Of a stretch of 64,000 nt of DNA, positions 11,628 through 64,000 are shown in pieces. The position numbers were made by a program, and so were the translations under genes. The notes below the pieces were generated by a model. The model was not told the origin of the DNA and did no database searches. It worked only from the letters and a program-made list of their open reading frames with translations. Source of the DNA: Georgenia subflava (GTDB lineage Bacteria > Actinomycetota > Actinomycetes > Actinomycetales > Actinomycetaceae); contig NZ_VUKD01000008.1 of assembly GCF_009193155.1 (NCBI RefSeq), positions 1 to 64,000 of the forward strand, in the 5' to 3' direction. Numbering within the stretch: position 1 is the stretch's first letter; each line of letters begins with the position of its first letter.

Positions 11628-13541
<1,914 letters not shown>

Positions 13542-59370: not shown

Positions 59371-60051
59371 ATGGCAGACCCGCCGAACGCCAGCCCACAG
59401 GGCCAGGACGACACCTTGGCGGCCGCCGTGAAGCCGCGCCTCCGTGGCTGGCTGCACGCCGGCACCGCACCGCTCGCGCTCGTCGCGGGCATCGTGCTCG
59501 TCGCCCTCTCCCCGACGTCCGCCGCCCGGTGGTCGACTGCGGTCTTCGCCGTCACGGCCGTGGTCCTCTTCGGGTGCTCGGCCGTCTACCACCGCGGGAC
59601 CTGGTCACCGCGCGTGACGGCCGCGCTGCGACGCCTGGACCACTCCAACATCTTTCTGCTGATCGCCGGGACCTACACCCCGCTGGCGGTGCTCCTGCTG
59701 GAACGGTCGACGGCGACCGTGCTGCTGCTGGTGGTCTGGGCCGGCGCGATCCTGGGCATCCTCGCCCGGATGGTGTGGCTCAACGCTCCGCGCTGGGTGT
59801 ACGTCCCCATCTACGTGGCGCTCGGCTGGGTCGCGGTCGGCTTCCTCCCGCAGTTCTGGACCGCCGGCGGGCCGGCCGTGTTCTGGTTGGTCGCCGGTGG
59901 CGGGCTGGCGTACAGCCTCGGCGCCGTCGCGTACGGCACCAAGTGGCCGAACCCGAGCCCGCGCTGGTTCGGCTTCCACGAGATCTTCCACGTCGGCACG
60001 GTCATCGGCTGGGCGTGCCACTACGCCGCGGTCTCGGTCGCCGCCTACTGA
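59371..60051 (+). CDS. trhA: Hemolysin III / PAQR family membrane protein TrhA
   Basis: A 226-residue seven-helix membrane protein. PAQR motifs: VLFGCSAVYHRGTWSP (S-x3-H), LRRLDHSNIFLLIAGTYTPLAVLLL (D-H/S-x3), and the C-terminal WFGFHEIFHVGTVIGWACHYAAV with the metal-binding H-x3-H. Work on other bacteria links TrhA to membrane fluidity balance rather than to hemolysis. The ATG at 59371 follows GGAGCCC. It is divergent from the isoprenyl synthase gene. Confidence 0.9.
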   Translation: MADPPNASPQGQDDTLAAAVKPRLRGWLHAGTAPLALVAGIVLVALSPTSAARWSTAVFAVTAVVLFGCSAVYHRGTWSPRVTAALRRLDHSNIFLLIAGTYTPLAVLLLERSTATVLLLVVWAGAILGILARMVWLNAPRWVYVPIYVALGWVAVGFLPQFWTAGGPAVFWLVAGGGLAYSLGAVAYGTKWPNPSPRWFGFHEIFHVGTVIGWACHYAAVSVAAY

Positions 60052-60228
60052 GACCGCGAGGAGAGCACGTCGCGGCGTCCGTGCGGCCGTGCGCTCCGCT
60101 CGCGGCACGTCGGGGATGGCGTCCGGGTTCTCCCGCGAATCCCCACCGCCGGGCGGGCCGCCGGTCTAGTCTTTTCGTGACGCATCGGTGGCAAATGCAA
60201 CCGGAAAGTTCGGGCGAGGGGTTCTCGG

Positions 60229-61398
60229 ATGCCACTGACAGCAGCGGGGGTCGACGCGGCTCGCGAACCACGACGGGCCTCCCCCCGGATTCGGCGAGCG
60301 GTCTCGACGGACCTCGTGACGATCGCCCGAGGCGGTGGCTCGGTGAACCCGTCCGACGAGCCGGAGGCGGTCATCGACCTTGTCCTCGCGGCCCGTCACC
60401 ACCGGGTGGCTCCACTGCTGCACCGCGCGGTGCGCGGGTCCGCCCCGGCGATCGCCGCGCTGGTGGAGCCCGACCGTCGGCTCGCCATCGGACACCACCT
60501 CGGCGCCACCCTCATGCTCGAGGAGTTCGCCGCCGTGGCGGGCTCCCTGCCGTGGGTGACGTTCAAGGGACCGGTTCTCTCTGAGCTGGCTCATCCGGTA
60601 CCCGGAATGCGGACCTACAACGACGTCGATCTCCTCGTCGACCCGCGGGACCTCCGTGAGATCACCAACCGGCTGCTCGACGCCGGGTGGACCGTCGGCG
60701 ACTACCAAGACATGCTGCGCAACCCTGACACGCCGGGCGAGATGCACTGGTTCTCTCCGACCGGACTGGCGGTCGACCTGCACTGGTCGATGATCAACAT
60801 GGCGGTGCGCCGAGCGCAGTTCGCGGTGTCCACGGAGGAACTGCTCGCGCGCCGCGTCCAGGTAACCCTTGGCCTCAACCGCGCCTGGACGATGGATGCG
60901 GCGGACGCCCTGGTCCACATCTGCCTTCATGCGGCCCTGACCGGGGCCAACCGGCTGCTCCTGCTCGTCGACGCCGACCGCATGGCGGCACGGGTGGACG
61001 ACTGGGACGACGTGGCGCGTCGAGCCAGGGCTTGGCGTGCAGCACCGCACGTCGCGCTGGTACTGGCCCGCGCCCGCCGCGTCCTCGGCACCCCGCTCCC
61101 GGCGAACCTCCCGCGGATGCTCGGCGCTACCCGGCCGTTCCGGATCCTCACAGCAGCGTTGGACCTTGCCGCACCCGTGCCTGCGGCTCGCCAGGAGGCC
61201 GGCCCGGCGCGGCTCGTGGCCAGAGCCGTACAGCCTTGGGCGGCACGGACGGTCGTGGCCTCCGGCCGGAGCTCGGCACGTGCACTGCGTGAACGCCTGG
61301 GCGCGCCCACAACCCGACCACCGAGAGAGCGGCTCCCCGCGGATCTGGAGTCGTTGTCGGTCTATCTGGCGGGTGTGGAGTCATCCACGCGTGGATGA
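60229..61398 (+). CDS. Nucleotidyltransferase-fold protein of the RiPP cluster
   Basis: A 389-residue protein of the uncharacterised nucleotidyltransferase family (NTP_transf_5 type). The core is VTFKGPVLSELAHPVPGMRT followed by YNDVDLLVDPRDLREI, with a D-x-D metal pair, and AVDLHWSMINMAVRR later (a third acidic site, Asp-x-His). Such genes recur in lasso-peptide clusters that also carry an HPr-kinase-like gene, with unknown role. It may modify or charge the phosphorylated peptide. The start at 60229 follows GAGGGG at a longish distance. Proteins in this class are about 350-400 residues, so it is complete. Confidence 0.82.
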   Translation: MPLTAAGVDAAREPRRASPRIRRAVSTDLVTIARGGGSVNPSDEPEAVIDLVLAARHHRVAPLLHRAVRGSAPAIAALVEPDRRLAIGHHLGATLMLEEFAAVAGSLPWVTFKGPVLSELAHPVPGMRTYNDVDLLVDPRDLREITNRLLDAGWTVGDYQDMLRNPDTPGEMHWFSPTGLAVDLHWSMINMAVRRAQFAVSTEELLARRVQVTLGLNRAWTMDAADALVHICLHAALTGANRLLLLVDADRMAARVDDWDDVARRARAWRAAPHVALVLARARRVLGTPLPANLPRMLGATRPFRILTAALDLAAPVPAARQEAGPARLVARAVQPWAARTVVASGRSSARALRERLGAPTTRPPRERLPADLESLSVYLAGVESSTRG

Positions 61399-61578
61399 CG
61401 CCGTCGCGGGAAGCCTTTCCCCTCACCCTCCATCACCCTCACCGGGTGCTGCGAATGACCCGCCGGATCATCCGCCGAGGATCACTTACAGCCACTACCG
61501 CCCCATAACCTCCAGAGAACTGCCGAGCGATCCGCGCTGGTAGCCAGCGGTAACCGGAAACGTGAGAGGAGAACCAAC

Positions 61579-61722
61579 ATGGCACAGTACGAAACGCCCA
61601 CCCTGCGAGAGGTGGGCTCCGTGCGCGAGCTGACGCTCGGCCTCGACTCCTGGAAGGAGTGGAAGGACGAGACGTACTTCTGGGGGCACAAGATCCCGCT
61701 GCCCGGCACGGGCACCAGCTGA
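61579..61722 (+). CDS. Lasso-peptide-type RiPP precursor
   Basis: A 47-residue precursor too short for most gene finders. The leader MAQYETPTLREVGSVRELTL has the YxxP-x-L recognition motif and a Thr near the end, both hallmarks of lasso leaders. If Thr is at the usual -2 position, the core begins at Gly21 and runs 27 residues: GLDSWKEWKDE, then TYFWGHKIPLPGTGTS. Glu at core position 7 could close a 7-residue ring with Gly1. If cleavage is after Gly21, Leu1 and Asp9 would give a 9-residue ring. The last residue is Ser. GAGAGGAGAACCAAC before the ATG is a strong ribosome site. Confidence 0.85.
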   Translation: MAQYETPTLREVGSVRELTLGLDSWKEWKDETYFWGHKIPLPGTGTS

Positions 61723-61733
61723 GACAACCACAC

Positions 61734-61768
61734 GGCGCTGCGCGACGCACGGTGCGTCGCGCAGCGCC
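61734..61768 (+). terminator. Attenuator-like hairpin between precursor and cyclase genes
   Basis: Perfect inverted repeat of 17-bp arms (GGCGCTGCGCGACGCAC and complement) around a single G, 12 bases after the precursor stop and 17 before the cyclase start. A partial terminator here would make the precursor mRNA more abundant than the enzyme mRNA, as in known lasso operons. Confidence 0.8.
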
Positions 61769-61784
61769 CTGCGGTTCTGACGCC

Positions 61785-62978
61785 ATGAGGTCACATCCCG
61801 CCCCCATGTTCGCCCGGCTCACCGAGCTGGAGGCGAACGTCGCCAACCCGCTCGGCGCCGATGACACCGCCGCGCTGCCGGATCCGGGCATGAGCACGAG
61901 AGCTGCGCTGGAGCAGACCGTGCTGCCGGCGGTCACTGACGACCGCTGCTACGTGCTCTTCTCCGGTGGCCGGGACTCCTCGCTCGTGCTCGCCGTGGCG
62001 ACCGCCGTCGCGCGGCGGGTCGGTGCGCCCGACCCGATACCGGTCACGGCGGTCTATCCCGGCGATCCGGACGCCGACGAGTCCTCCTGGCAGGATCTGG
62101 TCCTCGAGCACCTGGGCATCGACGAGCGCATCGTGATCCCGGTAACCGCCGAGCGCACCAATCTCGGCCCGGTGGCACGCCGTTCGCTGCGGGCGCGCGG
62201 GCTGGTCTGGCCGCAGTCCGTGCAGACCCAGCCCGTGTTCTTCGAACAGCTCGACCATGGCTCGCTCCTCAGCGGCGAGGGTGGCGACGGATTCCTCGAG
62301 GCGAAGAGGATCACGCCTCTGACGCTCCTGCGGCGCGACTGGCGAAGGCCATCGCCCCAGCAGGTGGGGGCTGCGCTCGGCGCCCTGCAGCCTTCTCGGT
62401 GGGCCGGTGCACGCGAGCGTCGCGAGCTGCTCGCGTCCGAGCGACTGTCCTGGTTCCGCCGACCCGCCCGCGAGCTCATCGCCCGTGACTCCGCCGACGC
62501 ACGCGGCCCGTTGCGCTGGGACGAGGCCACCGCCTTCCTCCTCAGCCGGCGCACGACCACGCTCGGCCTGGGGAACACGAAGGTGGGCGCCGCGGAGTTC
62601 GGCCTCACCATGAGCCATCCGCTGGCGGAGCCCGTTGTCGTCGCCGCGTTGGCGCACGAAGGTGGCCGGTGGGGCTTTCCCGGACGCACCAACCTCTTCC
62701 GGCGCCTCGGCGCCGACCTGCTGCCGGACGCGATCCTGGCGCGCCGGACGAAGGCACGGTTCAACGCGGCAGCCTGGGGGGCGGACGAGCAGGAGTTCGC
62801 ACGGGGCTGGACCGGTGGTGCGTTCTCACCCGAGCTCATCGACGAGGACGCACTCCGCCGCGAATGGCTGAGCGACAGTCCGCACCCGATCACCTACCTG
62901 CTGCAGCACGTCGCGTGGCTACATGCCCAAGGCATCCCGCTCAGCCCCGAGCACGCTCCCGTCTCGACAGCGGAGTGA
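61785..62978 (+). CDS. Asparagine-synthetase-type lasso cyclase, short form
   Basis: A 397-residue ATP-dependent enzyme. The synthetase domain is clear: VLFSGGRDSSLVLAVATAVA (ATP-binding SGGxDS), ITAVYPGD-like PVTAVYPGDPDADE, and SGEGGDGFLEAKRITPL (Asp binding Mg/ATP). C-terminal TKARFNAAAWG and ITYLLQHVAWLH fit the lasso C family. Typical cyclases have an additional N-terminal amidotransferase-like domain of about 200 residues, and here only about 45 residues precede the ATP site. It would activate the ring acid (Glu7 or Asp9) as AMP ester. An internal ATG at 61806 is an alternative start. Confidence 0.82.
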   Translation: MRSHPAPMFARLTELEANVANPLGADDTAALPDPGMSTRAALEQTVLPAVTDDRCYVLFSGGRDSSLVLAVATAVARRVGAPDPIPVTAVYPGDPDADESSWQDLVLEHLGIDERIVIPVTAERTNLGPVARRSLRARGLVWPQSVQTQPVFFEQLDHGSLLSGEGGDGFLEAKRITPLTLLRRDWRRPSPQQVGAALGALQPSRWAGARERRELLASERLSWFRRPARELIARDSADARGPLRWDEATAFLLSRRTTTLGLGNTKVGAAEFGLTMSHPLAEPVVVAALAHEGGRWGFPGRTNLFRRLGADLLPDAILARRTKARFNAAAWGADEQEFARGWTGGAFSPELIDEDALRREWLSDSPHPITYLLQHVAWLHAQGIPLSPEHAPVSTAE

Positions 62979-63114
62979 TCCCCCGGCGGCCTGGCGGCGG
63001 TCCAGTGCTCGCCCTAGCCGGCTGCCGGAACGGGGTGCCCGCGAGCGCTGGACCGCCGACGACCGTCGACCGCACGCACCGTGTGACCCGCCATCCCGTG
63101 GAGCGTGCGCCCGC

Positions 63115-64000
63115 TCAGGCGTTGCTCGCATGGACCAGTGAGAGGCCCGCGAGGACGTCCCGCGCCAGCGTCGCGGAGAAGGGCGGTCCCCACGGGAGTC
63201 TTGCGGCATACACCGGCACCGAGTCGACGATCGCCCCGAGCTCCTGGAACTGCTGATCGAGGACGCTCGGATCCTCCCACCCGACGATGCGCGGGAAGCG
63301 CAGCAGCGTGAATATCGCCTCCTTGGGCCCGAGCCGTACGAGCTCCGGGCCGGCGAGGTCGGCCTCGTGCTGCGGCACTGGGATCACGATGGCCCCGAGC
63401 GGCACGAGATCGTCCGTGGCCGGCACCATGGCGAGGGCGTCGCGGCCGTCGCCGGTGACGCGGCGAGCGGGCGTGTCGTCGAAGAGCGCTGAGAGGTCTC
63501 CGGCCGCCTTGCGCAGCCGCAGCGCGGTGGCCCCGAGACGGCACCGTGGCGGGCCGTCGCCGAGGTCGAGCCGCAGCACATCGTCGGTGATCAGCCGGCC
63601 GCCTTCGGCGCACAGCAGCGTCGCCATGGTGGACTTGCCCATCCCCGAAGCACCCACGAACGCAACCGCGACGCCGCCGACCTGCACCGCGCTCGCGTGC
63701 AGCACCGGATGCCCGCGCATCGCGAGCACGAAGGAGAGCAGGGTCCCGGAGACCAGGACGCCGAGGAGGTCCGCATCGGCGCCGTCGACGGCGCGCACCT
63801 CGACCTCCGTGAGCGTCGGGTCGATCAGGAAGTCGCAGGTGCCGTAGAAGCGTAGGACGTAGCCGTCGTCGACCTGGGTCGCCGTGAACAGCTGCCTCTC
63901 GGGGATGTCGAGGTGCAGGAGGACCCGTCCGTCGGGTCGCTCGTCCGTCCGGGCGATCCGAGCCCCGCGGCGCACCGTGATGTCAGGCGGCCCTGCTGCC
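63115..64000 (-). CDS. HPr-kinase-like protein of the RiPP cluster, 5' end outside the window
   Basis: At least 295 residues. The open frame reaches the window edge (AAGPPDITVRRGARIART) with no stop, so the start lies beyond base 64000. The P-loop is VAFVGASGMGKSTMATLLCAEGG, followed by LITDDVLRLD (Walker B with the Asp pair), in the HPr kinase/PEP carboxykinase fold. GHPVLHASAVQVGGVAV precedes the P-loop as in lasso-cluster kinases (PadeK/ThcoK), which phosphorylate the C-terminal Ser of the peptide. The gene converges on the cyclase gene and is probably the end of a minus-strand operon that starts to the right. Confidence 0.82.
   Translation of the reverse strand, partial: AAGPPDITVRRGARIARTDERPDGRVLLHLDIPERQLFTATQVDDGYVLRFYGTCDFLIDPTLTEVEVRAVDGADADLLGVLVSGTLLSFVLAMRGHPVLHASAVQVGGVAVAFVGASGMGKSTMATLLCAEGGRLITDDVLRLDLGDGPPRCRLGATALRLRKAAGDLSALFDDTPARRVTGDGRDALAMVPATDDLVPLGAIVIPVPQHEADLAGPELVRLGPKEAIFTLLRFPRIVGWEDPSVLDQQFQELGAIVDSVPVYAARLPWGPPFSATLARDVLAGLSLVHASNA

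Follow-up and report, generated by a model that had tools for sequence, protein, structure and literature searches.

Does the group of genes lying across the right-hand edge of a 64,000-base stretch of Georgenia subflava DNA encode a complete, modified lasso peptide, and at which residue would the ring of that peptide be closed? The stretch (the window) comprises bases 1-64000 of a 116,326-base contig, and an earlier, sequence-only reading had proposed that four adjacent genes at its end form a tailored lasso-peptide system. Calling genes by Pfam and NCBIfam profile matches, we found all four, the nucleotidyltransferase, precursor and cyclase above the profile cut-offs and the kinase by its catalytic motif and predicted fold (Table 1), and the interpretation is supported. 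We consider it probable that the locus as a whole is a complete, horizontally acquired cassette of the paeninodin/pseudomycoidin kind, within which Asp10 of the peptide is the most likely ring acceptor. The pseudomycoidin precedent, a glycosyltransferase inside the insertion, a second precursor-cyclase pair, short cyclases and an unusually placed ring acceptor go beyond that first reading. Comparison loci are given as L numbers.

A complete gene set in a single insertion

The sequence-only reading had the kinase running off the window edge on the minus strand and predicted a B1-B2-kinase operon to the right, to be sought within about 10 kb. The rest of the kinase gene reaches about base 64065, and B2 and B1 follow directly past the edge (64062-64779), also on the minus strand and facing the plus-strand genes, as predicted. 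The lasso gene set, consisting of B1, the cysteine protease B2 and an asparagine synthetase-like cyclase (C), is present in full. A plus-strand unit (nucleotidyltransferase, precursor, cyclase) faces a minus-strand unit (glycosyltransferase, B1, B2, kinase), and the same convergent order, minus the glycosyltransferase, recurs in L074-L076, the clusters closest to this one. B1 is similar to TbiB1 (E 6.7e-9) and TfuB1 (E 1.2e-4), two lasso proteins of solved structure, and the B2 residues Cys81, His113 and Asp125 are kept in 28-29 of 30 aligned rows, some of which are badly framed. The precursor P1 has the leader MAQYETPTLREVGSVRELTL and the predicted core GLDSWKEWKDETYFWGHKIPLPGTGTS; its leader carries the YxxPxL motif, reading YETPTL ... 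LTL and then G, with Thr two residues ahead of the core. Features of this leader and core are common to relatives. A purine-rich stretch precedes the P1 ATG.

Across the genus, hlyIII is present in 9/9 genomes, the order PhoH-UppS-hlyIII is kept in all eight congener stretches fetched, and ppk2 lies directly after hlyIII, with a gap of about 57-159 bases, in seven of these eight (no ppk2 match was seen in the eighth stretch). Since hlyIII and ppk2 are adjacent in 7/8 congeners, the cassette together with the glycosyltransferase is one insertion of about 5.9 kb between the two genes; the nucleotidyltransferase, cyclase, kinase, B2 and glycosyltransferase had no match in any of the eight stretches. 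The kinase was found in 1/9 genomes of the genus and 6/213 of the family; in samples of 396 genomes from the order and 394 from the class, 21 and 20, respectively, had the cyclase. Because the closest cyclases, at 58-61% identity, occur in another family, transfer of the cassette between families is likely. A kinase scan yielded 35 loci, among them loci of Occultella, Jiangella, Phytoactinopolyspora, Isoptericola, Nocardioides and Pseudactinotalea.

The kinase, its partners and the C-terminal serine

The kinase scores 28.2-28.4 bits against PF07475 (Hpr_kinase_C), below the cut-off of 33.3, and the family call therefore rests on the catalytic motif and the predicted fold. His124, Gly139, Gly144, Lys145, Ser146, Asp162 and Asp163 are conserved in 53/53 aligned rows and Gly142 in 52/53, with the motif spacing published for BsfK. 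The structure prediction has a predicted local distance difference test score (pLDDT) of 92.4, and a Foldseek search with this model returned the fold shared by phosphoenolpyruvate carboxykinase (PEPCK) and HPr kinase (best PEPCK match E 1.3e-8; HPr kinase 3tqf at rank 50, E 1.6e-4). As judged from its model, the protein would work like HPr kinase although it lies below the Pfam cut-off for that family.

We collected 54 unique cores from loci with a kinase match and from the genome's own second locus (L006), counting candidates with an initial Tyr and a same-strand C, B1 or B2 gene no more than 1,200 bases away. The sequence-only reading had taken the terminal Ser of the window precursor as a fit to paeninodin-type clusters, and a C-terminal Ser is indeed present in 50 of the 54 cores, which fits phosphorylation of the paeninodin type. 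The window peptide is probably phosphorylated on its last residue. Among seven candidates outside the distance limit, those of L042, L158, L161 and L189 and two in L092 also end in Ser; the L082 precursor, read by eye, has a broken tail and no C-terminal Ser. At 40 loci lacking a kinase match the precursor pattern gave 15 rows. Nine of these, hand-picked as plausible, end in N, D, W, A, W, G, N, Y and F, none in Ser; both L159 rows end in Ser, with no kinase seen in that 9.5-kb stretch, as does one of four rows discarded as noise. Because the nine were chosen by hand, we claim no Fisher test value for this contrast.

The kinase is accompanied by a nucleotidyltransferase gene, as in the pseudomycoidin type (PF14907, 126.5 bits), and Lys106, Gly107, Arg121, Asp125 and Asp127 of its product are conserved in 36/36 aligned rows. 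In Occultella and Pseudactinotalea the cassette has a close relative of the glycosyltransferase next to it; weaker relatives occur in L032, L024/L149, L146 and L158. Over 68 kinase loci the glycosyltransferase gave 15 rows, of which several are the same cluster fetched twice and one is the window's own locus. This distribution makes it plausible that the glycosyltransferase is a partner in some clusters rather than a constant one.

Two side observations concern the precursors. Isoptericola-type precursors (L028, L029, L035, L037, L044; five unique cores) have Glu at core position 1 together with Asp9, and Glu1 is not among the first core residues listed as observed in the metanodin paper. Jiangella-type clusters (L018, L022-L025, L027, L145, L146, L151, L154) have two tandem precursors, each with a terminal Ser, before a single cyclase.

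Position of the ring acceptor

A 2026 review describes characterised lasso rings with 7, 8 and 9 residues, and another review holds that rings above nine are too loose to hold the tail. Counting core positions from the residue two after the conserved Thr, we found Asp9 in 41/54 cores, Asp10 without Asp9 in 10/54 and neither in 3/54. Nine of the ten Asp10 cores belong to the window's cyclase clade (the window, L030, L074-L076, L081, L083, the second core of L085, and L086); the tenth in this count, L091, lies outside it, and L082, read by eye, is the tenth Asp10 member of the clade itself. Positions 8 and 9 carry no acid in these nine cores or in L082, all of which have Asp10. Within the usual acceptor range of 7-9 the window core offers only Glu7; its sister cores L081, L083, L085 (second) and L086 have no acid there, with Asp10 instead, and the broken-tailed L082 is alike.

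In a tree of 53 cyclases, the ten cyclases of the Asp10 clade form one side of a branch with support of 89/92, and the Asp9/Asp10 label changes once on the tree. Grouping the B2 proteases that serve Asp10 precursors into one clade was rejected by the approximately unbiased test (p-AU 0.002; 0.0096 without L030) in a tree of 47 B2 sequences picked by a pattern already demanding Cys and His-Ala/Ser-Trp, and the L085 B2 serves one precursor of each kind. A single change on the cyclase tree, combined with rejection of a single B2 clade, points to the cyclase rather than the cut as the source of the trait. We tentatively propose that cyclases of the window's clade close a native ten-residue ring at Asp10, which on these core alignments and trees we judge quite possible. 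Searches of the literature on ring size, taken at the level of the papers listed, turned up no report of a native ten-residue ring. A lasso cyclase can, however, close a ring of ten in an engineered fusilassin analogue in vitro (PMC8498205); in the window's clade, by comparison, whole native cores carry the ten-residue spacing.

Several observations weigh against this explanation, most of them at the ring. The window core carries Glu7 and Glu11 besides Asp10, with no acid at 8 or 9, and support for the Asp10 clade is below 95. The core search pattern required Thr or Ile at position -2, which leaves the counting frame partly assumed, and the presence of Thr(-2) in 35/35 non-redundant cores is only partly independent of that pattern. 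A crude profile scores Glu11 or no acid above Asp10 in five of the ten clade cores, and top in a sixth, and when tested on 26 left-out Asp9 cores it places the acceptor correctly in only 16. In a separate cyclase lineage (L091-L093, L161), precursors with an SDG motif have an acid at 10 or 11, and the L042 core has one at 11. The explanation would be either a wider spread of larger rings or a variable cut, and the acids of L091-L093 and L161 could mean that Thr(-2) is not a reliable starting point for the count in every core. On the side of the tailoring, the remaining 4/54 cores end in Gly-Ser-Arg (L081, L083, L085, L086), all in one cluster group of the window genome's family, and the second candidate of L091, outside the distance limit, ends in Asn. 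Lastly, no transporter gene was recognised among the cassette genes. The Gly-Ser-Arg precursors have a kinase alongside; their Arg may be trimmed, or the penultimate Ser modified.

Glu7 of the window peptide could instead close an ordinary seven-residue ring, placing Asp10 and Glu11 in the loop. Such rings are known, and the five cores of the window's subclade (L004, L030, L074-L076) all retain an acid at 7, but the four sister cores have Asp10 as their only candidate, and an aromatic residue four to five places past the acceptor fits an acceptor at 7 in 0/10 cores and at 10 in 10/10. We consider closure at Glu7 quite unlikely. An eleven-residue ring at Glu11 in the same subclade is very improbable: all five subclade cores have Glu11, which the crude profile ranks first in the three from L074-L076, yet the sister subclade carries Asn11, leaving position 10 as the sole acid common to all ten, and the profile is weak (16/26, as above). 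As a judge between Asp10 and Glu11, this alignment-free profile of post-acceptor residues was rejected as too weak.

A different count arises if B2 cuts one residue later, with Thr at -3, so that Leu becomes residue 1 and Asp the ninth. This would keep the ring within 7-9; unusual first residues are possible, Asn1 being reported for metanodin, and the same later cut in both of the genome's own precursors would give the second an eight-residue ring, which is also allowed. Against it, 9/9 clade cores have Gly at Thr+2, followed by any of several residues (Gly, Lys, Leu, Trp, Ser); over the 35 non-redundant cores, variability is much lower at position 1 than at position 2 (2.16 versus 3.39 bits); and the Asp10 trait follows the cyclase, not B2. 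Among Asp9 cores, Gly1 occurs in 11/41; as related sequences are not independent, the p of 0.0004 for this contrast does not count as a formal test. We regard the nine-residue ring as unlikely, and retain Asp10 of a core beginning with Gly as the most likely acceptor.

A side observation at L030 is a precursor at 12348-12524 that contains two Cys and lacks any acid from core position 7 to 12, its first acid being Asp13; its own cyclase follows.

Short cyclases mark the branch

The catalytic motif of C1, SGGRDSS, is present in 54/55 aligned cyclases, and the C1 model (pLDDT 92.8) matches beta-lactam synthetase and asparagine synthetase. The distance from the precursor stop to the SGGxDS motif is 60-120 codons in 47 of the 49 cyclases with an upstream precursor, and 164 and 239 in the other two. 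At control loci, at least 225 codons precede the motif in 24/25 frames, a count that starts from the previous stop and is an upper limit. Likewise, the Pfam synthetase domain starts at residue 203-348 in 8/8 long control frames versus residue 40 in C1. Cyclases of this branch thus have the synthetase domain within about 60 residues of the N-terminus, with 200 or more residues before it in the other lasso cyclases checked.

We rejected a tie between short cyclase and kinase, as the long cyclases of L187 and L189 stand next to kinase and nucleotidyltransferase genes; the short form therefore marks this branch and not all kinase clusters. We also set aside the idea that the long cyclases carry a glutaminase-like N-terminal domain: Pfam named one in only 1/8 long frames (L189), just under the cut-off, and therefore we claim only a difference in length. 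The short form bears on whether a lasso is made at all, since the product could be a linear phosphopeptide or a decayed remnant, and the literature searched included no lasso product of a short cyclase. The near-invariant SGGRDSS motif, the high-confidence cyclase model and the precursor-cyclase pairing kept at 49/56 cyclases argue the other way and make this outcome extremely improbable.

A second precursor-cyclase pair

The same genome has a second precursor (P2) and cyclase (Table 1), 35 kb from the cassette, between mfd and a NeuD-like gene, and the P2 core has the canonical Asp9. This pair was not found in the stretches fetched from eight congeners, in one of which mfd, NeuD and the next gene are contiguous. 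The second pair is without a B2 or kinase of its own. The whole genome has one B2 above the Pfam cut-off (a second match, at 16.9 bits, lies in a long frame elsewhere) and one kinase match; with a single B2 and a single kinase, the second pair most likely relies on the enzymes of the first cassette. Within the stretches fetched, L030 and L085 similarly have two precursor-cyclase pairs and one B2 each.

Proposed pathway

In the pathway that we propose, B1 would bind the YxxPxL leader and the kinase would phosphorylate the last Ser of the linear precursor; this phosphate would then be decorated by the nucleotidyltransferase, perhaps with the cassette's own glycosyltransferase. A B2 cut two residues after the conserved Thr would leave Gly1, and the short cyclase C1 would activate an acid side chain and link it with Gly1, enclosing the threaded tail. 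The acceptor in this clade of cyclases would most likely be Asp10, giving a ten-residue ring, and the P2 pair, with its canonical Asp9, would probably borrow the same B1, B2 and kinase.

Gene layout

Table 1. Features of the cassette and of the second precursor-cyclase pair, in contig coordinates
Feature	Bases	Strand	Basis or content
Nucleotidyltransferase (NTP_transf_5 type, PsmN-like)	60229-61398	+	PF14907, E 1.7e-36, 126.5 bits, cut-off 31.2
Lasso precursor P1	61579-61722	+	NCBIfam lasso leader NF033521, 33.5 bits, cut-off 19
Perfect 16-bp stem with 3-base loop, between precursor and cyclase	61734-61768	+	Read from the sequence, then folded
ATP-dependent lasso cyclase C1, short form	about 61785-62978	+	PF00733, 53.9 bits, cut-off 21
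HPr-kinase-like precursor kinase	63115 to about 64065 (past window edge 64000)	-	Catalytic motif, predicted fold
B2	64062-64493	-	NF033537, 58.0 bits, cut-off 33; PF13471, 51.8 bits, cut-off 26
B1	64519-64779	-	PF05402, 61.0 bits, cut-off 23.4
Family 2 glycosyltransferase	64945 to about 65787	-	PF00535, 43.7 bits, cut-off 23.3
Second cyclase	97969-99168		47% identical to C1
Second precursor P2	99243 to about 99407	-	Leader MDALSSTAQYAPPEITEVGTVRGLTL, core GETLQGNADWKLNNLHPSQVAPHTGLYS

The stem-loop past the P1 stop perhaps sets the ratio of precursor to cyclase. A stable stem after the precursor stop was seen in 44/49 precursor-cyclase junctions (z < -2, 60 mononucleotide shuffles). Scans of 59900-64000 found no sigma-70 promoter and three terminator matches; neither result was used.

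Relation to known systems and implications

The cassette is an actinobacterial variant of the known paeninodin/pseudomycoidin kind. The psm cluster of Bacillus pseudomycoides likewise pairs a nucleotidyltransferase with a kinase, and PsmN gives pseudomycoidin one or two hexoses on its phosphorylated Ser, directly or via a host enzyme (PMC9266682, PMC8498205). Unlike psm, the window cassette is actinobacterial, has two facing transcription units, a short cyclase and no recognised transporter, includes a family 2 glycosyltransferase in the insertion, and has its predicted acceptor at position 10. The kinases of paeninodin (pade), Thco and Syan are likewise HPr-kinase-like and act on the C-terminal Ser of the linear precursor (PMC9266682, PMC8498205). 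They are described in Firmicutes and Proteobacteria (PMC8498205), and the window cassette differs from them in acceptor position and cyclase type. The bsf cluster of Bradymonas sediminis shares the split B1/B2, cyclase, kinase, nucleotidyltransferase and kinase motif spacing (PMC10368454), but BsfK phosphorylates Ser3, the leader has Ile(-2), the ring is Gly1-Asp8 and a transporter gene is present (PMC10368454).

The glycosyltransferase inside the insertion bears on the pseudomycoidin question of whether the sugar is added by the nucleotidyltransferase or by another enzyme. The genome itself offers a paired test of ring size, with one protease, two cyclases and two predicted ring sizes. A native ten-residue ring, if true, would change the genome-mining rule for calling cores and would show the cyclase setting ring size.

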